Source of the DNA: Beijerinckia sp. 28-YEA-48
GTDB lineage: Bacteria; Pseudomonadota; Alphaproteobacteria; Rhizobiales; Beijerinckiaceae
Direction: 5' to 3'
Assembly (NCBI RefSeq): GCF_900104955.1
Contig: NZ_FNSI01000001.1
Coordinates: 4,436,001 to 4,500,000, forward strand
DNA: 64,000 bases
This document shows positions 3,422 to 12,464 of the stretch, piece after piece. Every line of letters starts with the position of its first letter. The stretch's first letter is position 1. The position numbers and the translations under genes are program-made. The notes under the pieces were generated by a model. That model was not told the origin of the DNA, ran no database searches, and was given only the letters and a program-made list of their open reading frames with translations.

Positions 3422-3578
3422 GGCCTCGGCCTCGTTCTGATAAGCGAGCTTGGGAATGCGCTTGCTTCCGGCATCGTCGATGGGATAAGTCCCACCCTCG
3501 ATAGCCCCCCTGTTGCTCGCATCAGCGAATAGGACAACAGTGCGTGGGATGCTCCAGCCGCCGGATTGGGAGGAATGC

Positions 3579-4601
3579 ATGCTGCTGCCTACGACGATCG
3601 TCGGATCCTATCCGCAACCAGACTGGCTGATCGACCGGAGCAAACTCGGCAAGCGGCCGCCGCCGCGCGTTCGCGCGAAAGAGCTGTGGCACATCGATCC
3701 GCAATGGCTTGAAGAAGCGCAGGACGATGCGACCTTGATCGCCATCCGCGATCAGGAGCGTGCCGGCATCGACATCATCACCGATGGCGAGATGCGCCGC
3801 GAAAGCTATTCGAACCGTTTCGCCACGGCGCTGGAAGGCGTCGACATCGACAATCCCGCCGTCGTGCCAAGCCGCAGCGGCAATCCCGATCTGGTGCCGC
3901 GCGTCATTGGCAAGATCAGGCGTAAACATGCGGTGGAACTGCGCGACGTGCAGTTCCTGCGCAAGAACACCGACAAGCGCATCAAGATCACTGTGCCTGG
4001 CCCGTTCACCATGTCGATCCAGGCGAAGGATTTTCACTACAACGACGAAGCCGCCGTGGCGATGGACTATGCCGCCGCCGTCAACGAGGAGATCAAGGAT
4101 CTCTTCGCCGCTGGCGCCGATATCGTCCAGATCGACGAGCCTTACATGCAGGCGCGCCCCGACCAGGCGCGCGCCTATGGCGTCGATGCGATCAACCGCG
4201 CCGTCGAAGGCGTGAAGGGCACGACCGGTGTGCATCTGTGTTTCGGCTATGCAGCGCTGGTGAAGAATAAACCGGCCGGCTATTCCTTTCTGCCCGAACT
4301 CGAACGCTGCAATGTCGATCAGATCTCCATCGAAACCGCTCAGCCGGTGCTCGACTTCAAGGTTCTCGAACAGCTACCGAGCAAGACCATGGTCATCGGC
4401 GTGATCGATCTCAACGACATGACGGTGGAAACGCCTGAAGTCGTCGCCGAGCGCATTCGCCGCATTTTTCCCTTCGTCCCGGCCAAACGCATTGTCGTCG
4501 CGCCCGATTGCGGCATGAAATATCTGCCGCGCGATGTCGCTTTCGGCAAGCTGAGGGCGATGGTGGAAGGCACCCGGATCGTCCGCGCCGAACTCTCCTA
4601 G
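3579..4601 (+). CDS. Core MetE-like methionine synthase (C-terminal domain only)
   Basis: A 340-residue protein corresponding to the C-terminal catalytic barrel of cobalamin-independent methionine synthase (MetE) without the N-terminal half. It should transfer a methyl group to a thiol such as homocysteine. The zinc ligands expected for MetE are all present: His and Cys in GVHLCFGY (about residues 219 and 221), Glu in ISIETAQP (about 252) and Cys in VAPDCGMKY (about 311). The N-terminal TTIVGSYPQP is typical of this short family. The ATG at 3579 follows a GGGAGGA ribosome site; 22 codons of open frame upstream are unlikely to be used. The methyl donor of stand-alone core MetE proteins is often not methyl-tetrahydrofolate triglutamate, so the true substrate is open. 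It precedes a CoA-transferase gene but is separated from it by a hairpin-rich repeat. Confidence 0.85.
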   Translation: MLLPTTIVGSYPQPDWLIDRSKLGKRPPPRVRAKELWHIDPQWLEEAQDDATLIAIRDQERAGIDIITDGEMRRESYSNRFATALEGVDIDNPAVVPSRSGNPDLVPRVIGKIRRKHAVELRDVQFLRKNTDKRIKITVPGPFTMSIQAKDFHYNDEAAVAMDYAAAVNEEIKDLFAAGADIVQIDEPYMQARPDQARAYGVDAINRAVEGVKGTTGVHLCFGYAALVKNKPAGYSFLPELERCNVDQISIETAQPVLDFKVLEQLPSKTMVIGVIDLNDMTVETPEVVAERIRRIFPFVPAKRIVVAPDCGMKYLPRDVAFGKLRAMVEGTRIVRAELS

Positions 4602-4719: not shown

Positions 4720-5904
4720 ATGGTGGACGCGCCGCTACCGCTCTCTCGCTACAAGGTCCTCGACCTGACGCGGGCGCGCGCCGGGCCGACCACGGCACGC
4801 CAGCTCGCCGACTGGGGCGCTGACGTCATCAAGGTGGAAATGGCCGAGGGTGGTGAGGGCGGCGGCTTCGACGGCCATCGCGATTCCGCCGATTTCCAGA
4901 ACCTGCATCGCAACAAGCGCAGCCTGACCATCGATCTCAAGAGCGACGACGGCCGGCGCATCTTCAATCGTCTGGCCGAAAACGTCGATGTGATCGTCGA
5001 GAATTTTCGGCCCGACGTGAAACATCGCCTGGGTATCGATTATGAGTCGATCCGCGCCCTCAATCCACGCATCGTCTACGGCAGCATTTCCGGCTTCGGC
5101 CAGGATGGCCCCTATGCGGGCCGTCCCGGCGTCGATCAGATCGCGCAGGGGATGAGCGGGTTGATGTCGGTCACCGGCCTGCCCGGCCAGGGCCCGGTGC
5201 GCGCCGGCGCCGCCGTCGCCGACATGTCGGCTGGGCTTTATCTCTCCATCGGCATTCTGCTGGCGCTGATCGAACGCGAACAGTCCGGCCAGGGCCAGTG
5301 GGTGCAGACCTCGCTGGTCGAATCGCTGATCGCGGTGATGGATTTCCAATCGGCCGCCTGGTTGTTCGACCGCAAGGTTCCGGTCCAGGCTGGCAACAAC
5401 CATCCCTATTTCATTCCGACCGGGACCTTTCCAACCAAGGACGGGCACATCAACATCGGCTCGGGCACCCAGTCGTCCTGGGCGCGGTTGTGCAAGGCTC
5501 TTGGCGCCGAAGATCTACAGCACCGCCCCGCCTATGCCGATGCCGAGAAGCGCCGCGAACATCGCGACGAGCTGAACGAAGAGCTATCCGCCATTCTGAG
5601 CACGCGCAGCAGCGCCGAATGGGTCGAGGCGCTGAATGCGGCCAGCGTGCCGTGCGGACCGATCTACAGCATCGACCAGGCTTTCGCCGACCCGCAGGTG
5701 AAACATCTGGGCATCGCCACGCCGATCAAACATCCGCGCCTGGGCCGTCGCGAAATCGTCGGCCAGCCGATTCACATGTCGCGCACACCCTGGCAGATGC
5801 GCCGCGTGACACCGGATGCCGGCGAACATTCCAGCGAAATCCTGCGCGAACTCGGCTTCAGCGACGACGAGATCGCCGGACTGCGCGACCGCAAGATCAT
5901 CTGA
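4720..5904 (+). CDS. CaiB/BaiF family (class III) CoA-transferase
   Basis: A 394-residue class III CoA-transferase, which moves CoA between carboxylic acids through an aspartyl-CoA thioester intermediate. Family hallmarks are the opening LSRYKVLDLTRARAGPTTARQLADWGADVIKVE, given here only by its parts (VLDLTR, GADVIKVE), the segment NKRSLTIDLK, VDVIVENFRPD, and GSISGFGQDGPYAGRPGVDQ. The catalytic Asp is expected in GAAVADMSAGLY around residue 168. The length is normal for the family. The stop is 14 bases before the crotonase-fold gene, so the two are probably one operon handling the same acyl-CoA. The substrate cannot be read from sequence; formyl-, carnitinyl-, succinyl- or other CoA exchange are all possible. 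Confidence 0.9.
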   Translation: MVDAPLPLSRYKVLDLTRARAGPTTARQLADWGADVIKVEMAEGGEGGGFDGHRDSADFQNLHRNKRSLTIDLKSDDGRRIFNRLAENVDVIVENFRPDVKHRLGIDYESIRALNPRIVYGSISGFGQDGPYAGRPGVDQIAQGMSGLMSVTGLPGQGPVRAGAAVADMSAGLYLSIGILLALIEREQSGQGQWVQTSLVESLIAVMDFQSAAWLFDRKVPVQAGNNHPYFIPTGTFPTKDGHINIGSGTQSSWARLCKALGAEDLQHRPAYADAEKRREHRDELNEELSAILSTRSSAEWVEALNAASVPCGPIYSIDQAFADPQVKHLGIATPIKHPRLGRREIVGQPIHMSRTPWQMRRVTPDAGEHSSEILRELGFSDDEIAGLRDRKII

Positions 5905-5918
5905 ACAGGACTAAACTC

Positions 5919-6713
5919 ATGAACGCCTCGAACGGCAAAATGATTGGCGACAAGGACGGCGCCATCGGCTGGATCATCTTCAACGATCCCAAGCGGCACA
6001 ACGCCATCAGCCACGAAATGCGCCTCGATCTCCTCGGCATCCTCGGCGACTTCGAGAATGACGACGCCATCCGGGTGGTCGTGCTGCGCGGCGCCGGCGA
6101 CAAATCCTTCGTTTCCGGCGCCGATATTTCGCAGTTCGAGGGCTATGCCAACAATCCGGAACGGCAGAAAGATATGGCGGCCACGACCGCGCGCCTTTTG
6201 GATCGCTACGACACTTACCGCAAGCCGCTCATCGCCATGATCCAGGGCTATTGCCTGGGCGCCGGCGTTGGCACGGCGCTCGCCGCCGATCTGCGCATCG
6301 CCTCTGACAAAGCCCAGTTCGGCATTCCGGCCGGACGACTTGGTGTCGCCTATCCGCTGCACTCCGTGCGGCGGCTGATCGAAATCGTCGGCTCCAGCAA
6401 CGCCACCGAAATGCTGTTCACCGCCAACCGCTATGCGGCGGCAGAGGCGCTGGCAATGGGCCTCGTCAACAAAGTCGTGTCTACGAGCGAGCTGGAAGCG
6501 ACCGTGCGCACTTTGGCGATGACCATTGCCGACAATGCCCCACTCACCGTGCGAGCGTCCAAGATCGCCATTCGCGAAGCGATGAAGCCCGCGGCAGAAT
6601 GCGACTTCACCACCGTCGCCGCGGCCGTCGCCGCCTGCTTCGCCAGCCAGGACCATGCCGAAGGACGCAAGGCGTTCGCGGAAAAGCGCAAGCCGGTTTT
6701 CAACGGGCGGTGA
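5919..6713 (+). CDS. Crotonase-superfamily protein lacking both hydratase glutamates
   Basis: A 264-residue member of the enoyl-CoA hydratase/isomerase (crotonase) superfamily. The oxyanion-hole region FVSGADISQF near residues 64-73 and the turn GYCLGAGVGTALAADLR are recognisable and align without gaps to rat mitochondrial hydratase. In that alignment the two catalytic glutamates (Glu144 and Glu164 of the rat enzyme) are replaced: the first by Gly in AGVGTAL, the second by Ala in FGIPAGRLG. Simple hydration of enoyl-CoA is therefore unlikely, and another crotonase chemistry such as isomerisation, hydrolysis or decarboxylation must be considered. The ATG at 5919 has a CAGGA ribosome site and follows the CoA-transferase stop by 14 bases, implying a shared acyl-CoA substrate. 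Confidence 0.85.
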   Translation: MNASNGKMIGDKDGAIGWIIFNDPKRHNAISHEMRLDLLGILGDFENDDAIRVVVLRGAGDKSFVSGADISQFEGYANNPERQKDMAATTARLLDRYDTYRKPLIAMIQGYCLGAGVGTALAADLRIASDKAQFGIPAGRLGVAYPLHSVRRLIEIVGSSNATEMLFTANRYAAAEALAMGLVNKVVSTSELEATVRTLAMTIADNAPLTVRASKIAIREAMKPAAECDFTTVAAAVAACFASQDHAEGRKAFAEKRKPVFNGR

Positions 6714-6787
6714 GCGGACGATTCAGAAAGAGCCTGCGCCTCATCCTGAACCGCGCAGCAGGCGATCCGGGAAGACACCGAGAGCAT

Positions 6788-7930
6788 TCACGCCTTCTCA
6801 ACGATGAGCGCGCTGCCAAGCCCCCCGGCGGCGGCGATGGTGGCGAGGCCGCGTGCACCGGCCTCTTCCCGTTGCAACTCATGAAACAGACGCACGGCGA
6901 GGATGCCGCCTGAAGCGCCGATGGGATGGCCACGTGACAGCGCGCCACCACCGCGATTGATGCGGCTGGAATCAAAGCGTAGCGCATCGACCGTGCCGAG
7001 CGCCTGTGCTGCGAAAGCTTCCATGATTTCGACAGCCGAGATTGCGTCCGCAGTCGTTTGCACCTGCGCCAGAACCGCTTTCGCCGCTTCCGTACTCATC
7101 AGGCCCGGCAGCACCGGATCGCCGGCCACGCGCTTGGCCGCAACGATACGAACGGCGCTCGCCCCCTTTAGCTTCTTCAAAGCCGCGTCGGAGACAACAG
7201 CCAGAACCGCGGCGGCATCGGCTTCGACGGCAATGGTCGCGGCAGTCAGCGCATGAGCGCCCGCGCCCGCTAAAGCTGGCAGGCGTGCGCAGGTTTTTTC
7301 TGAAAGTCGGCGGCCAAAGGCATCGTGATCGAGGCCCGCGACAGGGACGATCTCCCGGTGCAAATGCGCGCGCGCGGCAAGCGTCTTGGCGTGGCTCTCG
7401 ATCGCAAAGGCCTCTTGACGACTGCGGGAAATGTCGAGCCTTACGGCTAGGTCATGGGCCGAGGCGATCATGTCCGGATCGCGATCAGCCCAGGGCGTGA
7501 ACGGCGGGCGCTGATATTCGACCGCTTCTTCATCGTCACGCAGCGGCCGACGCAGGCGCAGCGGCGAGCGGCTGAAACTTTCAACGCCGCCGCACAGGAT
7601 CACATCTGCGGTGCCTGCCAGAATGCGCTCGGAGGCGGCAATGATGGCATCGAGTCCGGCGCAACATTGCGTGTCGATGGTCTGCGCCGGAACGCGCTGC
7701 GGCAGGCCCGCCGCCAAGCCGACGACGCGGGCCGGATTGCCACCGCCATAGAGCGCATTACCAAGGATGATCTCGTCGACGCTGTCAGGCGCGATGCCTG
7801 TCTCTTCAAGGATAGCGCCGATCAGCGGCGCGGCGAGATCGTGGACGCCAAGTGCCGCGAAGGCGCCGTGGCGCGGCGCCACCGCCGTGCGCTTGGCCGC
7901 GACAATCCAAGCGGTCCTTGCCCCGGTCAC
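6788..7930 (-). CDS. Thiolase-family protein without the C-terminal catalytic Cys
   Basis: A 380-residue thiolase-fold protein. The nucleophile Cys lies in TQCCAGLDAI near residue 90 and the catalytic His in GGALSRGHPIGASG near residue 337. The second catalytic Cys, normally in a motif such as TLCIGGGQG, is absent: the aligned stretch reads TIAAAGGLG, so Cys is replaced by Ala. This makes ordinary thiolysis or acetoacetyl-CoA synthesis doubtful. The start is the GTG at 7930, overlapping the upstream ligase stop as GTGA, and the domain begins at VTGARTAWIV. It is the last gene of the bioMNY-ligase-thiolase operon. A similar trio (bioY paralogue yhfU, ligase yhfT, thiolase yhfS) is known in Bacillus subtilis, which supports a link to biotin or its pimeloyl precursor. 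Confidence 0.88.
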   Translation of the reverse strand: MTGARTAWIVAAKRTAVAPRHGAFAALGVHDLAAPLIGAILEETGIAPDSVDEIILGNALYGGGNPARVVGLAAGLPQRVPAQTIDTQCCAGLDAIIAASERILAGTADVILCGGVESFSRSPLRLRRPLRDDEEAVEYQRPPFTPWADRDPDMIASAHDLAVRLDISRSRQEAFAIESHAKTLAARAHLHREIVPVAGLDHDAFGRRLSEKTCARLPALAGAGAHALTAATIAVEADAAAVLAVVSDAALKKLKGASAVRIVAAKRVAGDPVLPGLMSTEAAKAVLAQVQTTADAISAVEIMEAFAAQALGTVDALRFDSSRINRGGGALSRGHPIGASGGILAVRLFHELQREEAGARGLATIAAAGGLGSALIVEKA

Positions 7931-9408
7931 GGCAGCCGCTCCAAAACGCCACTGTCGAGCCGGCGCTTCAACTCGGCGAAATCTGTTTTCCCGGAACGGG
8001 TCATCGGCCAATCCGCGGTTTGATAGACGTGGCGCGGGATCATGGTCAGAGGCAGGCTCTCCCGGCAATGGGCGATCAGAGCGCTAGCCGAAACGGGGGC
8101 GTCCGTCTTGACGATGGCCACGAGCCGCAAGCCGCGCACCGCATCAGGCTCACCCAGAACGGCGGCGGCAGTTACATCGGGATGGCGCGCCAGCACGGCT
8201 TCAACGCCTTCGGGACTGATGTTCTTGCCCGACGAGATGATCATCCGGTCGGCGCGGCCAACCAGATGCAGAAAACCCTTGGTGTCGAGAAAACCGACAT
8301 CACCGACGGAGATGGCGTCGCCATGGCGCCGCAGGAGCGTTTCGCCCTGCGGCGCATAGCTCATAAAAACCATCGGGCTGGCGACGTAAACAAGCCCGGT
8401 CTCGCCGGCGGCAAGCGCCTTTCCATCGCCATCGCGAATGCTGAGCGTAACGGAGCTAAAAGCGCGGCCAACGGAGGTTTCCGGCGCGCCTTCGCTTTGC
8501 TTGCGCACGGCGATGAAGCTCAACTCGGACGCGCCGTAGAATTCAGCAATCTCGGCCTGCGGAAAAGCCTGGCGCAGCAGGGCGTGATCATCAGCACCGA
8601 GCTTGGCGCCCGACGAGAGAATCACGCGCAGCCCCAGTTGCACACCCGATGCCAAGGCGCTTTCCGCCATCAGACGAAGCTGCGAGGGCACACCATAGAG
8701 GATCGTCGCGCCATGGTCCTGGCCCTGGCGGATGGCGCGGTCTGGCCGAAAGGCACGGGACATCAACAGTGTTGCGCCGACATGCACCGCATGGGCGGCC
8801 GCATAGAGAAACAGCGAATGGGTCATCGTGCCTGGCGCCAGCAGGACATCATCGGCGGTGACGCCAAACTCTTCCTGTTCGACGGCGAAACTTTCGAGCC
8901 AGGAGCGATGATGGCGGCGATAGCCTTTCGGCAGGCCGGTCGAGCCGGAGGTGAAGCCGACATAGAAGGGGGCGAGATCGCTGACATCGCGTGGCGACGC
9001 CAGGACATCGTCGGTCTTGGAAAAGGCAGCCATCAGATCATCGACGTTCGGATGGTCCGAGGGCACGTGCATAAGATGCGGATGGATCAGGCGTTGGCCG
9101 CTGATCAAGAGATCGGGACGCGCCCGATCGACGATCGACTGGCCCATGGGGGCGGGCCAGTCCGGATCCAGAATCTGCGCCTCGCGGCCGGTGGCGATGG
9201 TGGCCAGAAACAACGGTATGAAGCCGGGGCAATTCCGCAGTTGAAGGGCGACGGATTGTCCGCGCGGCACAGCCGCATCGATGCGATGCGCCAATTGATC
9301 GCGTTGCTTTAGAAGTTGCGACCAAGTGATCTCCGTCGCATCACAGACGACCGCGAGACCCGAAGGCCTTTGCGCCGCATGGTTCGCGATCGTCGATCCG
9401 ATGATCAT
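7927..9408 (-). CDS. AMP-dependent acyl-CoA synthetase/ligase of biotin-transport operon
   Basis: A 493-residue class I adenylate-forming enzyme, expected to activate a carboxylic acid as an acyl-AMP and then as an acyl-CoA. The P-loop-like motif FTSGSTGLPKG sits near residue 152, a YGASE motif near residue 294, GDVGFLD near 372, the hinge GRADRMIISSGKNISP near 387, and the C-terminal catalytic Lys in MTRSGKTD near 472. The ATG at 9408 overlaps the bioY stop (ATGA) and its own stop overlaps the thiolase start (GTGA), so translation of the three is coupled. The context favours pimelate or another biotin precursor as substrate, by analogy to YhfT next to a BioY paralogue in Bacillus, but the acid specificity is not visible. 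Confidence 0.9.
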   Translation of the reverse strand: MIIGSTIANHAAQRPSGLAVVCDATEITWSQLLKQRDQLAHRIDAAVPRGQSVALQLRNCPGFIPLFLATIATGREAQILDPDWPAPMGQSIVDRARPDLLISGQRLIHPHLMHVPSDHPNVDDLMAAFSKTDDVLASPRDVSDLAPFYVGFTSGSTGLPKGYRRHHRSWLESFAVEQEEFGVTADDVLLAPGTMTHSLFLYAAAHAVHVGATLLMSRAFRPDRAIRQGQDHGATILYGVPSQLRLMAESALASGVQLGLRVILSSGAKLGADDHALLRQAFPQAEIAEFYGASELSFIAVRKQSEGAPETSVGRAFSSVTLSIRDGDGKALAAGETGLVYVASPMVFMSYAPQGETLLRRHGDAISVGDVGFLDTKGFLHLVGRADRMIISSGKNISPEGVEAVLARHPDVTAAAVLGEPDAVRGLRLVAIVKTDAPVSASALIAHCRESLPLTMIPRHVYQTADWPMTRSGKTDFAELKRRLDSGVLERLP

Positions 9409-9974
9409 GGATAAGACCTTGGATCGGACTTTGCTGCCGCCGCGATCGTCTGATCCGGCATCAGCGAAGCAAGATAGGCGCAGGCCAGCGCCTTCAACAC
9501 ATCGCCCGGCACAAAGACGAGATCAGCCAGCAGCGCCTGCTGCCAGGACATGCTGGTCTTCCAGACAAGACCGGCGATGCCGGCAAAATGGATGACGACT
9601 ACACCGCCGAGGAAACAAGCCAGCAACGCGCGCAGGAAAACACCTTTGCCGCTTCCTAACCGCATCAGCCATCCGACCACGAAAGCGCCAATCGGATAGC
9701 CGATCAGATAGCCGGCCGACGGGGTGAACAGAACGCCCAATCCGCCACGGCCACCAGCCAGCAGCGGCGCGCCCAAGAGCACGACGAACAGAAACAGCGC
9801 GACACTGGCAAAGCCCAACCGCGCACCGAGAAAAACACCGGCCATCATCACGCCGAGAGTCTGCAAAGTGATCGGCACGCCGCCGGCAAGGGGAATGTCG
9901 AGACGGGGGAACAGACCAAGCGCCGCCATCAAAGCGGCGAACAGGCTGACGCGAACCATGTCACGCAATTGCAC
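9405..9974 (-). CDS. bioY: Biotin transporter substrate-binding S component BioY
   Basis: BioY is the integral membrane biotin-binding subunit of an energy-coupling-factor transporter. The 189 residues contain about six hydrophobic segments and the family pattern around PLAGGVPITLQTLGVMMAG (about residues 28-46) and the later PSAGYLIGYPIGAFVVG (about 85-101). The start is GTG at 9974, eight bases after an AGAGGA ribosome site at the bioN tail; ATG at 9959 is a possible alternative. The gene follows bioN with a 2-base gap and overlaps the ligase start by four bases, giving a complete BioMNY transporter encoded in one operon with two acyl-CoA enzymes. Confidence 0.94.
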   Translation of the reverse strand: MQLRDMVRVSLFAALMAALGLFPRLDIPLAGGVPITLQTLGVMMAGVFLGARLGFASVALFLFVVLLGAPLLAGGRGGLGVLFTPSAGYLIGYPIGAFVVGWLMRLGSGKGVFLRALLACFLGGVVVIHFAGIAGLVWKTSMSWQQALLADLVFVPGDVLKALACAYLASLMPDQTIAAAAKSDPRSYP

Positions 9975-9976
9975 GT

Positions 9977-10597
9977 CTATTTCCTCTTCTCGGTTGTCAG
10001 GTTCATTTCAAAGCCGCGCGCCACCAAGGCTTCAGCGGCATGATCGGCCAGGCGCAGAACATCGCTGAGGAAAGGCGCCAGAAGACGCAGCGGCGGCCGC
10101 CGACCAGTGCGGGCGCGCCAGGCTTCCTCTCGCTTGTTCCATTCGCTCATGATCACCGGAATGAAGCGCAGCATCAGAGCGACCGCGAGCGCCAGCCGGC
10201 GCTCGTCGAGCCCGAGCGGGCGCAGCAGCCTGAATAAAGGCTGCAACGCATCCATCATGGCGAGCATCGGCGTCGTCGCGGTGACGAGATCGGCGAGCGC
10301 GATCATCGCCACCAGACGCAACAATGTGGCGAGCGCCATCTCCCAGCCCGACGTATAAATTTGCAGAAGAGCAATGCCGATCAGGAAGGGCGCCAGTGGA
10401 CGATAGAGTTTCAGGCGCGCGCCAGCGGCGGAAATGGTGAAGACATAGAGAGCAAGAATAACCACACAAGCGACGAGGAGCGGCGGCCACTGGCTCATCC
10501 AGCCAAGCAAAATCGAAGTGACCGCCAGAACGGCGAGCTTAGGACCGGCGTTGATCCGATGCAGCCAGGTCTGCTGAGCCACATGCGGCGCGATCAT
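9977..10597 (-). CDS. bioN: Biotin ECF transporter transmembrane subunit BioN
   Basis: BioN is the T component that couples BioY to the BioM ATPase. The 206-residue protein has several hydrophobic helices (for example LAVLAVTSILLGW and LLVACVVILALYVF) and the cytoplasmic ATPase-coupling helices with Ala-Arg-Gly signatures expected of EcfT proteins, visible as EAWRARTGRRPP near residue 157 and AEALVARGFE near 189. The ATG at 10597 overlaps the bioM stop as ATGA. A longer frame exists upstream but it would run into bioM, so the coupled ATG is preferred. Confidence 0.93.
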   Translation of the reverse strand: MIAPHVAQQTWLHRINAGPKLAVLAVTSILLGWMSQWPPLLVACVVILALYVFTISAAGARLKLYRPLAPFLIGIALLQIYTSGWEMALATLLRLVAMIALADLVTATTPMLAMMDALQPLFRLLRPLGLDERRLALAVALMLRFIPVIMSEWNKREEAWRARTGRRPPLRLLAPFLSDVLRLADHAAEALVARGFEMNLTTEKRK

Positions 10598-11286
10598 GCG
10601 ATGGCCTGCGCGTCGCAATGGGCGCGATAGGCCCGCAACACAGTCTCGGGTGTGCCATCGCCGGCGATCTGTCCATCATCGAGCCAGACGATCCGGTCGA
10701 AATCCTGCATGGCGTCGAGATCGTGGCTCGCCATGACGATCTGCTGCGGCAAATTGAACAACAGCCGCAGGAACATGTTGCGGGCCCGGAGATCAAGGCT
10801 CGAGAACGGTTCGTCGAGCAGGACCAGCGCCGGCTCGCAGACGAGAATGGCGAGAATGCACAAATGCTGCTTCTGGCCGTCGGACAGTTCGGCAACTGAG
10901 CGTTCGCACCAATCGGCGCAATTGTGACGTAGCAGAAAGGCGCGCGCCGCCGCCGTCGCTTCAGCCGGCCCCATGCCGCGCTCGCGCAGGCCAAAGGCGA
11001 TTTCCTCAAGACTGGTTGGGAAAACGATCTGATGCTCGGGATTTTGAAAAATGAACCCGACACTGCGCGGCAATTGCGCTCGGCTGGCTTTCGTTTCCAG
11101 ACCATGCACGGTCACGTGGCCCTGGTCGGGCAGCAGGAGCCCATTGAACAGCCGCAGCAGCGAGCTTTTGCCGGCGCCGTTGACACCGATCAGGCCAATG
11201 CGGCGCTCGTCGAGTTGCAAACTCAATTGATGCAGCACAGGGCGGCCATTGCGCGCCAGCGTTACATCCTTCACGTCAATGGTCAT
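10594..11286 (-). CDS. bioM: Biotin ECF transporter ATPase subunit BioM
   Basis: BioM is the ABC ATPase that powers biotin import with BioN and BioY. The 230 residues hold a Walker A motif GVNGAGKSSLLRL near residue 38, a Q-loop in FQNPEHQIVFPTS near 79, the signature ELSDGQKQ near 136 (a D in place of the usual second G-type position, common in EcfA proteins), a Walker B PALVLLDEPFSSLD near 158, and a switch His in MASHDLD near 190. The start ATG at 11286 gives the normal N-terminus MTIDVKDVTL; an in-frame extension of 28 codons upstream lacks domain character. It is the first gene of the operon, 19 bases downstream of a 20-base palindrome. Confidence 0.94.
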   Translation of the reverse strand: MTIDVKDVTLARNGRPVLHQLSLQLDERRIGLIGVNGAGKSSLLRLFNGLLLPDQGHVTVHGLETKASRAQLPRSVGFIFQNPEHQIVFPTSLEEIAFGLRERGMGPAEATAAARAFLLRHNCADWCERSVAELSDGQKQHLCILAILVCEPALVLLDEPFSSLDLRARNMFLRLLFNLPQQIVMASHDLDAMQDFDRIVWLDDGQIAGDGTPETVLRAYRAHCDAQAIA

Positions 11287-11304
11287 GTGCCGGGTCGCGC
11301 CGCC

Positions 11305-11324
11305 TGAATATGCTGCTGTATTCA
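11305..11324. promoter_or_regulatory. Palindrome upstream of bioM, candidate operator
   Basis: TGAATA at 11305-11310 and TATTCA at 11319-11324 form a perfect inverted repeat separated by eight bases (TGCTGCTG), 19 bases upstream of the bioM start. The size and symmetry suit a dimeric repressor. It does not match the BioR TTATMKATAA consensus known in Rhizobiales nor a long BirA-type site, so the regulator is unknown and the role is only inferred. Confidence 0.35.
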
Positions 11325-11486
11325 CAGCTGCGCGCCCTTCTATCAAGCTGGATGCCGCAGCGCAAAACAACTCGGGGCGGTGGTCCGGGGAACTTTATTT
11401 TCGAGAACTTGTTTCACCTGACGGGGCATGTATGGATTTCCCAATATCAATTTCCAAAGGGCGATCGGCCCAAATGCGAGGAAACC

Positions 11487-12464
11487 ATGCTGGCTGGCTG
11501 GTATGAACGTTGTGGTCCGGCCGATGAGGTGATTTCCGTCGGCGAGATCGAAAAGCCGCTCGCCGGTCCGGGCGAAGTGCTTGTCCGCGTTCATGCCTCC
11601 GGCATCAATCCGTCCGACTACAAGCGCCGCGCCAACGTAAAGGCCGGCATGGAATTCCCACGCATCGTGCCGCATTCGGATGGCGCCGGCACCGTGGCGG
11701 CGCTCGGCCCTGGCGTCAGCAATTATCGCGTCGGCGACCGGGTGTGGATGTTCAACGCGCAATGGGCCCGGCCGATGGGCTCGGCGGCGGAATTCGTCAG
11801 CCTGCCTGCCACGCTGATCCGGCCGCTGCCGAACTGCGTCAGTTTCGAGGAAGGCGCGTGCCTGGGCATTCCAGCCATGACCGCCTATCATGCGATTTTC
11901 CGCGACGGCCCGGTGAAGGGGCAAACCATCTATGTACCGGCGGCGACAGGCCGTGTCGGCGCCTATGCCATTCAATTCGCTCGCTGGGGCGGCGCCCGCG
12001 TGATCGCCAGCACCGGATCGCGCGACAAGATGGATGCGATCAAAGCACTTGGCGCCGATGTGGTTCTCGACCGCAACAGCGATCTGTCGAAAAGCATTCT
12101 AGAGCATGCGGATGGGCGCGGCGTCGACCGCGTCATCGAGATCGATTTCGGCCATCAGATCGGCTTTGACGAGCAAATCGTGGCTGAAGGCGGCACGATC
12201 GTATCATATGGCGCGGCCGCGCCCGGAAAAGCCGAGATCACGCTGTCTCCCAGGCGCGCGCGCAACATGTCGGTGCATTTCATCTTCGTCTATATGTTGT
12301 CGGATGCACAGAAGCAGACGACCTGCGATGGCATTCTGCAGGCGATCCGCGACAAGGCCTTGCGCCACCGGATCGCCGGCACGGTGCCGCTGATGGATCT
12401 GGCGCGCGCCCATCGCGAGGCGGAAAGCCAGGCGGGCACCGGCCATATGGTCGTCACTCTGTAA
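11487..12464 (+). CDS. Zinc-type alcohol dehydrogenase-like / NADPH:quinone reductase family oxidoreductase
   Basis: A 325-residue medium-chain dehydrogenase/reductase of the quinone-reductase branch. A GroES-like N-terminal half carries GEVLVRVHASGINPSDYK (about residues 31-48) and the nucleotide-binding half a glycine motif in AATGRVGAYAIQFARWGGARVIAS near 150-173. No structural or catalytic zinc cysteine cluster is visible, as expected of the quinone-reductase class. The ATG at 11487 follows a GAGGA ribosome site; upstream codons are not conserved in character. It is divergent from the biotin operon and ends ten bases before the YqaA-type gene, so the two may be co-transcribed. The physiological substrate is not predictable. 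Confidence 0.88.
   Translation: MLAGWYERCGPADEVISVGEIEKPLAGPGEVLVRVHASGINPSDYKRRANVKAGMEFPRIVPHSDGAGTVAALGPGVSNYRVGDRVWMFNAQWARPMGSAAEFVSLPATLIRPLPNCVSFEEGACLGIPAMTAYHAIFRDGPVKGQTIYVPAATGRVGAYAIQFARWGGARVIASTGSRDKMDAIKALGADVVLDRNSDLSKSILEHADGRGVDRVIEIDFGHQIGFDEQIVAEGGTIVSYGAAAPGKAEITLSPRRARNMSVHFIFVYMLSDAQKQTTCDGILQAIRDKALRHRIAGTVPLMDLARAHREAESQAGTGHMVVTL

Follow-up and report, generated by a model that had tools for sequence, protein, structure and literature searches.

A conserved proteobacterial operon joining a BioMNY-type importer to a CoA ligase homologue and an altered thiolase, with a possible role in biotin salvage

Why should the genes of a biotin importer be tied into one operon with those of a ligase and a thiolase homologue, and what could such a gene set do? 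The question is raised by a stretch of 64,000 nucleotides from Beijerinckia sp. 28-YEA-48 (NZ_FNSI01000001.1 of GCF_900104955.1, positions 4,436,001-4,500,000 of the forward strand), the whole of which we call the window. Here bioM, bioN, bioY, a gene for an AMP-forming acyl-coenzyme A (CoA) ligase homologue and a gene for a thiolase-fold protein are arranged in tandem, all on the minus strand, from 11286 to 6788 (open reading frame (ORF) coordinates); we refer to this gene set, in this and other genomes, as the module. We find that biotin importer, CoA ligase and altered thiolase form a conserved proteobacterial unit, some copies of which carry fused redox or hydratase domains and which occurs mostly in genomes unable by gene content to make biotin.

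Operon layout and spread of the gene set

The first-pass annotation of this DNA had described five minus-strand genes with ATGA, 2-base-gap, ATGA and GTGA junctions, and this description is exact to the base. The first gene, bioM (10594..11286, ATG start, 230 amino acids), encodes an energy-coupling factor (ECF)-type ATPase, or A component, with a score of 86.6 bits against Pfam ABC_tran; its top NCBIfam model is TIGR04520 (ECF_ATPase_1), at a score under the cut-off of that model. The ATG of bioN (9977..10597, 206 amino acids) lies in the bioM stop (ATGA), and its product is an EcfT-type transmembrane protein, or T component (CbiQ, 55.4 bits). The S component gene bioY (9405..9974, 189 amino acids; Pfam BioY, 120.4 bits with a cut-off of 25) starts with GTG 2 bases past the bioN stop. 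The ligase homologue (7927..9408, ATG start, 493 amino acids; AMP-binding and AMP-binding_C) overlaps bioY by ATGA, and the thiolase-fold protein (6788..7930, GTG start, 380 amino acids; Thiolase_N and Thiolase_C) overlaps the ligase by GTGA. A single operon thus holds the A, T and BioY S components of an importer of the BioMNY ECF type.

How far does this gene set reach? A thiolase-alignment scan of named genomes confirmed at least 526 relatives, and the locus counts given here refer to the best 80 of these 526, which by record title span alpha-, beta- and gammaproteobacteria. The ligase was present in all 80 loci, BioY in 72 and BioN in 69; a BioM match was found in 70, or 69 if a stray match in L084 (weak, 71 bits, on the opposite strand) is set aside, and 68 loci carry the complete set of bioM, bioN, bioY, ligase and thiolase homologue. 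Because several loci end at a contig end, absences among the 80 are upper bounds. Further, the link to BioY is not built into these numbers, because the thiolase scan made no use of BioY. We conclude that the gene association is real and not due to chance, and the case that it is unique to this genome, with which the first-pass annotation had reckoned, is excluded.

The ligase itself is rare. It was found in 3 of the 149 genomes of a family sample at E <= 1e-40, one of them (L005) without any other module gene, and in 10 of the 385 genomes of a class sample at E <= 1e-50. Six of these 10, besides that of the window, have a thiolase homologue adjoining the ligase, and the short stretches fetched from these six contained BioN in five cases and BioY in three; the class-sample ligase loci L012-L014 had no other module gene in the stretch fetched. 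At L071:3824-5735 the ligase lies in two overlapping frames, perhaps owing to a frameshift or sequencing error. Ligase matches were also noted in 115 Rhizobium plasmid records. No Firmicutes copies on plasmids were seen among the genus names of 21 thiolase matches or among the ten commonest names of 215 ligase matches, 12 further names being mostly unlisted.

Components of the module

What does the thiolase-fold protein retain of a thiolase? We counted residues in 88 module copies (that of the window, 7 others and 80 from the thiolase scan), excluding a neighbouring paralogue in L079, the 89th ORF, which has the canonical Asn and Cys. The nucleophilic Cys (Cys89) and the His of the GHP motif (His348) are retained in 88 of 88 copies, a conservation that is partly due to selection, the region of the nucleophilic Cys lying inside the search pattern. 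At the position of Cys378 (CxG motif), the region of which lies outside that pattern, 85 copies have Ala, 2 Gly and 1 Pro, and none has Cys; at that of Asn316 (NEAF motif), 62 have Met, 24 His (mostly betaproteobacterial) and 2 Asn, and it should be noted that ranking by similarity favours look-alikes. The protein encoded in the window has Ala and Met at these two positions. Two further copies, one from Azospirillum (beside BioMNY) and one from Rhizobium etli (without BioY), have Asn and Gly by motif. As a separate observation, in L126:8582-11695 (Rhizobium etli p42f) a thiolase homologue whose Cys378 motif reads with Gly is clustered with a thioesterase and an AMP-binding ligase, and no annotated BioY was present within the 19 kb inspected around this cluster.

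According to the available text of PMC3406046, Cys378 is the base that deprotonates the substrate, and the oxyanion hole for the enolate is formed by Asn316 and His348. Because Cys378 is absent from all 88 copies, ordinary thiolase chemistry appears doubtful for the module protein, and the plain thiolase-type chain processing that had been proposed for it is not borne out. The thiolase fold, however, looks intact, because the AlphaFold2 model is confident (predicted local distance difference test score, pLDDT, 95.9) and the 50 matches listed in a fold search with this model are ordinary thiolases, the best with a template modelling (TM) score of 0.93 (8gqj and 1m4s).

With regard to protein families, the thiolase homologue of the window scores over the broad subfamily model TIGR01930 (270.4 bits; cut-off 240.55). 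Against the next NCBIfam model, PRK06690, which we take to be that of Bacillus subtilis YhfS, it reaches 219.8 bits (cut-off 498) and is outscored by three further thiolases encoded in its genome. The best NCBIfam model of the ligase is PRK07638, presumably that of B. subtilis YhfT; the score of 333 bits is under the equivalog cut-off of 518 and is the best of the whole genome by 124 bits, the runner-up reaching 209. In 14 control genomes, PRK06690 and PRK07638 each exceeded their cut-off in one.

The BioY of the window has a sole match in the PDB, 4dve (BioY, 1.4e-20), with which it shares the GG.GG, P..GY and GD..K positions. Among 79 distinct module BioY sequences each of these positions is retained in 76 to 79, and eight of nine BioYs classed as non-module differ at them. 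That class was defined by a short fetched stretch without the ligase and comprises eight BioYs from other carriers and one from the genome of the window; the label of the L123 BioY is unsure, because it is module-like at the conserved positions and placed before its own bioM and bioN. At L021:3399-4511 and L024:3426-4522 we noted a tandem pair of bioY genes within the module.

Biotin supply, partner genes and possible roles

Do the organisms that carry the module make biotin? We scored biotin-synthesis genes in 56 carrier genomes, most of them isolates; 48 belong to loci among the 80 of the scan, their completeness being unstated, and 8 are others. bioB was over the cut-off in 23 of the 56 and not in 33. 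Eight of the 23 also had bioD over the cut-off, and the same eight had bioA, which makes them producers by gene content (8/56); the other 15, the genome of the window included, had neither. The window's genome has bioB over the cut-off, no bioD match, and bioA and bioF matches only under the cut-off. bioF, tested in 30 genomes (23 with and 7 without bioB), was not used for these classes, because only 3 exceeded its strict cut-off while relatives reach 379 bits. The trio of bioY and the two enzyme genes is present in 72 of the 80 loci, and 48 of the 56 carriers lack bioB, or have it but neither bioD nor bioA over the cut-off. We predict that these 48 are unable to make biotin from pimelate, barring substitute enzymes. 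The genome of the window probably lives on desthiobiotin or biotin, because it has no bioD match and no bioA over the cut-off.

These counts bear on the precursor route suggested earlier, in which the module would import pimelate and activate it with CoA for biotin synthesis. The eight producers would be able to use such a supply, but the remaining 48 (33 without bioB and 15 with bioB but neither bioD nor bioA) could not, barring substitutes, convert pimeloyl-CoA. We therefore rejected pimelate supply as the common role, and the route appears highly improbable. bioB is present in 133 and absent from 252 of the 385 class genomes, a comparison that is rough because the 56 carriers include about 11 beta- and gammaproteobacteria; the class baseline being similar to the carriers, the bioB data speak against the pimelate role without showing an enrichment of auxotrophs. 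As for the earlier proposal that import is coupled to CoA activation, the tie between a biotin-type importer and a ligase stands, whereas pimelate activation as its common form does not.

Similarly, both enzymes would suit an activate-and-transfer scheme in which the ligase replaces BirA and the thiolase-fold protein serves as the transferase of a second protein-biotinylation route. BirA, however, was over the cut-off in 34 of 34 carriers tested (the 33 without bioB and the genome of the window), so that we rejected BirA replacement and regard this route as extremely improbable. Further, BioY was found in all 56 carriers. Among the 33 without bioB, 25 have a single BioY and 8 more than one, and in 24 of these 25 the single BioY lies, by position, in the module, the exception being G189, with BioY on another contig; in G411 we confirmed the order bioY-bioM-bioN ahead of a fused ligase. 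Because the module BioY is the sole BioY found in 24 of the 33 carriers without bioB, it is most likely, as judged by gene content, an importer of biotin or of a vitamer with an intact ring. Carriers without biotin synthesis, with BirA and with the module BioY as their sole BioY are what makes both pimelate supply and BirA replacement fall away.

Which other genes keep company with the module? Because clustering of neighbours gave mostly shadow ORFs, genes were instead picked by a home-made codon-based procedure; in some low-GC loci (e.g. L007-L009, L020, L037, L048, L049) it yielded none. A nitroreductase homologue is present somewhere in the fetched stretch in 34 of the 80 loci. In L007, L008, L016, L020 and L067 it forms the front part of a fusion with the ligase, and in L061, L070 and L092 it lies 2-4 kb from the thiolase homologue; five homologues that were scanned belong to Pfam Nitroreductase, and four scanned against NCBIfam gave none over the cut-off. 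Six loci, L028, L033, L034, L036, L041 and L058, have a MaoC-like gene after that of the thiolase homologue (Pfam-confirmed in L028 and L033 only), and at L019:5992-7581 the thiolase homologue has a fused C-terminal MaoC-like extension, making 7 MaoC-like loci in total. The sole bioB match among the 80 loci lies directly upstream of bioM in L063. As side observations, a panD-panB-panC group precedes bioM in L027 (301-2510), L041 and L077, and pan genes beside the module were seen in Bradyrhizobium, Acidovorax and Microvirga; panD stands alone in L019, and L075 has a weak panD match. A MocR-like regulator gene, judged by eye, precedes bioM in Roseibium/Labrenzia (L046:1008-2387 and 13 other loci, one of them partial), and a TetR gene does so in Ancylobacter and Bosea (L050:2030-2632, scanned with Pfam, and 4 other loci).

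In the window, a crotonase (enoyl-CoA hydratase) family gene (5919..6713, plus strand) is convergent to the operon and a possible partner of it; beside it lies a CoA-transferase family III gene (4720..5904, plus strand; CoA_transf_3, 404 bits), the link of which to the operon is unproven. Divergent from the operon is a gene of the zinc-binding dehydrogenase/quinone oxidoreductase family (11487..12464, plus strand), likewise a possible, unproven partner. L015 and L032 have homologues of the crotonase and CoA-transferase genes at the corresponding positions, and L004 has a partial crotonase homologue. In L015, L030 and L032 a homologue of the dehydrogenase gene stands upstream of the module. In L015 and L032, therefore, the eight-gene order of window positions 4720-12464 is kept, and the block of CoA-transferase III, crotonase, five-gene operon and dehydrogenase is arranged identically, orientation included, in three genomes. 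By eye, an ORF at 3513-4601, which lies upstream of the CoA-transferase gene, resembles a cobalamin-independent methionine synthase-like protein.

Taken together, we tentatively favour, with a probability of about 40%, a role of the module in the salvage of biotin vitamers via CoA thioesters. BioMNY would bring in biotin or a biotin-like acid whose ring is intact, and the ligase, by way of an acyl-adenylate, would join the carboxylate of the side chain to CoA as a thioester. The acyl group would then pass to the nucleophilic cysteine of the thiolase-fold protein, which would carry out a step relying on Cys and His and independent of Cys378, either a transfer of the acyl group or a ketoacyl-synthase-like condensation. 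In many lineages a flavoprotein of the nitroreductase family and a MaoC-like or crotonase hydratase may assist, and a vitamer with an altered side chain would finally be restored to biotin for BirA. Gene content, conservation, the altered residues and, in most carriers tested, the missing biotin-synthesis genes are observed; we infer the substrate (biotin or a vitamer), the formation of a thioester, the direction and the product. In favour of salvage are the conserved synteny of the 80 loci, the 33 carriers without bioB with their mostly single, module-borne BioY, BirA in all 34 genomes tested, the retained BioY positions, bioB beside bioM in L063, the nitroreductase and MaoC-like partners and fusions, and repression of the related S. 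aureus and B. subtilis genes by BirA. Hydratase and flavoprotein partners suggest that the reactions take place close to the chain's carboxyl end, and hence that vitamers altered in the side chain are salvaged. Bisnorbiotin would be a natural candidate substrate because it is abundant: in the portion of PMC9106636 available, bisnorbiotin accounts for 13-23% and biotin sulfoxide for 5-13% of the biotin in human 24-h urine. A salvage route of this kind, if true, would matter for vitamin exchange among microbes, bisnorbiotin and biotin sulfoxide being abundant metabolites.

A more specific version, which we consider quite unlikely, is that shortened catabolites such as bisnorbiotin are imported and their valerate chain is rebuilt by reversed beta-oxidation. 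The thiolase-fold enzyme would then work without the thiolase base, dehydration would fall to MaoC or crotonase, and enoyl reduction to the dehydrogenase or to the flavoprotein of the nitroreductase family. In the 24 of 88 copies with His at the position of Asn316, this residue would give a Cys-His-His set like that of ketoacyl-ACP synthases. If such repair took place, biotin auxotrophs would gain vitamers thought to be dead ends.

Several observations weigh against vitamer salvage. The enzyme roles that it assigns are predictions. Eight of the 80 loci are without BioY, including L020 on a 5-kb contig, and no nitroreductase homologue was found in the fetched stretch of 46 of the 80 loci or within the window. 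The 56 carriers show no enrichment for bioB absence relative to the 385 class genomes. Finally, regulation does not visibly link the module to biotin: no perfect match to TTATnnATAA, which we take to be the BioR-type box, was found in the window or beside the operon in the module loci. The closest match upstream of the operon of the window (11200-11560) has 2 mismatches, and a lone perfect match in L063, at 8877, lies past the thiolase homologue. As judged from these matches, the module operon is not visibly under BioR. A common upstream motif was not found either, as counts of exact dyads and 10-mers in 58 upstream regions returned only words of a few related loci.

The missing box would fit a module BioY that is a paralogue for another carboxylic acid, which the ligase, thiolase homologue, hydratase and flavoprotein would catabolise. 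In the same genome, the second bioY stands in a row (L125:3877-6174) of a GntR/FCD regulator gene (presumably bioR), bioY and bioB, and this row has two perfect TTATCTATAA boxes. Also in keeping with another acid are the 8 of 33 bioB-less genomes that have more than one BioY, and the crotonase and CoA-transferase genes that flank the operon in the window, L015 and L032. On the other hand, in 24 of these 33 genomes the module BioY is the sole BioY and must supply biotin unless another transporter does so, and the conserved BioY positions are retained. We consider this explanation possible but rather unlikely.

Could the two enzymes simply keep imported biotin inside the cell? The ligase gene overlaps bioY by four bases, and its product might make biotinyl-CoA and thereby retain biotin, which the thiolase-fold protein, acting as a thioesterase or transacylase, would set free when needed. 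The remaining Cys and His could suffice for an acyl-enzyme; indeed, the available text of PMC6392133 describes PhlC as a thiolase-fold acyltransferase that works via an acyl-Cys with a nearby His. Trapping would, however, leave the recurrent nitroreductase and MaoC partners unexplained, and all 34 genomes tested have BirA, the enzyme that attaches biotin to proteins; we regard trapping as unlikely.

On paper, the ligase, hydratase and thiolase homologues would also fit the reverse direction, namely biotin catabolism, with biotinyl-CoA entering beta-oxidation to bisnorbiotin. Yet the thiolase homologue is without the base Cys378, and an auxotroph would not be expected to pass biotin from its sole importer on to breakdown. 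Further, the related genes of Firmicutes are repressed, not induced, by biotin: the available parts of PMC6391492 and PMC7235819 describe the S. aureus yhfS-yhfT promoter as bound by BirA and repressed by biotin, and those of a review (PMC11089781) describe the related bioY, yhfT and yhfS genes of B. subtilis as BirA-regulated. Such repression fits supply rather than catabolism, which appears very unlikely.

Relation to known systems

How does the module compare with systems already described? Among the open-licence PMC papers listed in our searches, none dealt with it in proteobacteria. The first-pass annotation had drawn a parallel with B. subtilis, and the bioY, yhfT and yhfS genes of B. 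subtilis and Staphylococcus aureus likewise combine BioY with an AMP-forming ligase and a thiolase homologue. The parallel holds for the gene set and for the ligase, which matches PRK07638, our presumed YhfT model, better than any other ligase of its genome. It does not extend to kinship of the thiolase with YhfS, as the module protein, fourth of its genome on PRK06690, is not preferentially close to what we take to be the YhfS model. The module operon also differs in having its own BioM and BioN, to which relatives add nitroreductase and MaoC partners. In the available text of PMC6391492 and PMC7235819, the yhfS and yhfT products are termed putative.

The BioMNY transporters of Rhodobacter capsulatus and Rhizobium etli, which are named in PMC3246461, resemble the module in that a single operon encodes the A and T components together with BioY; the module operon, in contrast, continues into the ligase and the thiolase homologue, and the words ligase and thiolase are absent from the main text of that paper. 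With the biosynthetic thiolases of Zoogloea ramigera and Clostridium the module protein shares the fold (TM 0.93 to 8gqj and 1m4s), the nucleophilic Cys and the GHP His, but it is without the Cys378 base and has Met or His at the Asn316 position in 86 of 88 copies.

The BioW/BioI, BioC/BioH and BioZ routes to pimelate, as treated in the available text of PMC11089781, also tie acyl activation or enzymes of the thiolase superfamily to biotin. These routes feed the biotin ring pathway, however, whereas 48 of the 56 module carriers are without bioB, or without bioD and bioA. Lastly, salvage of desthiobiotin by bacteria with bioB only, as described in the available part of PMC9561691, offers a precedent for vitamer-using auxotrophs, and the genome of the window, with its regulator-bioY-bioB row and no bioD or bioA over the cut-off, resembles them. 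Desthiobiotin salvage needs bioB, whereas the module is also carried by 33 genomes without it.

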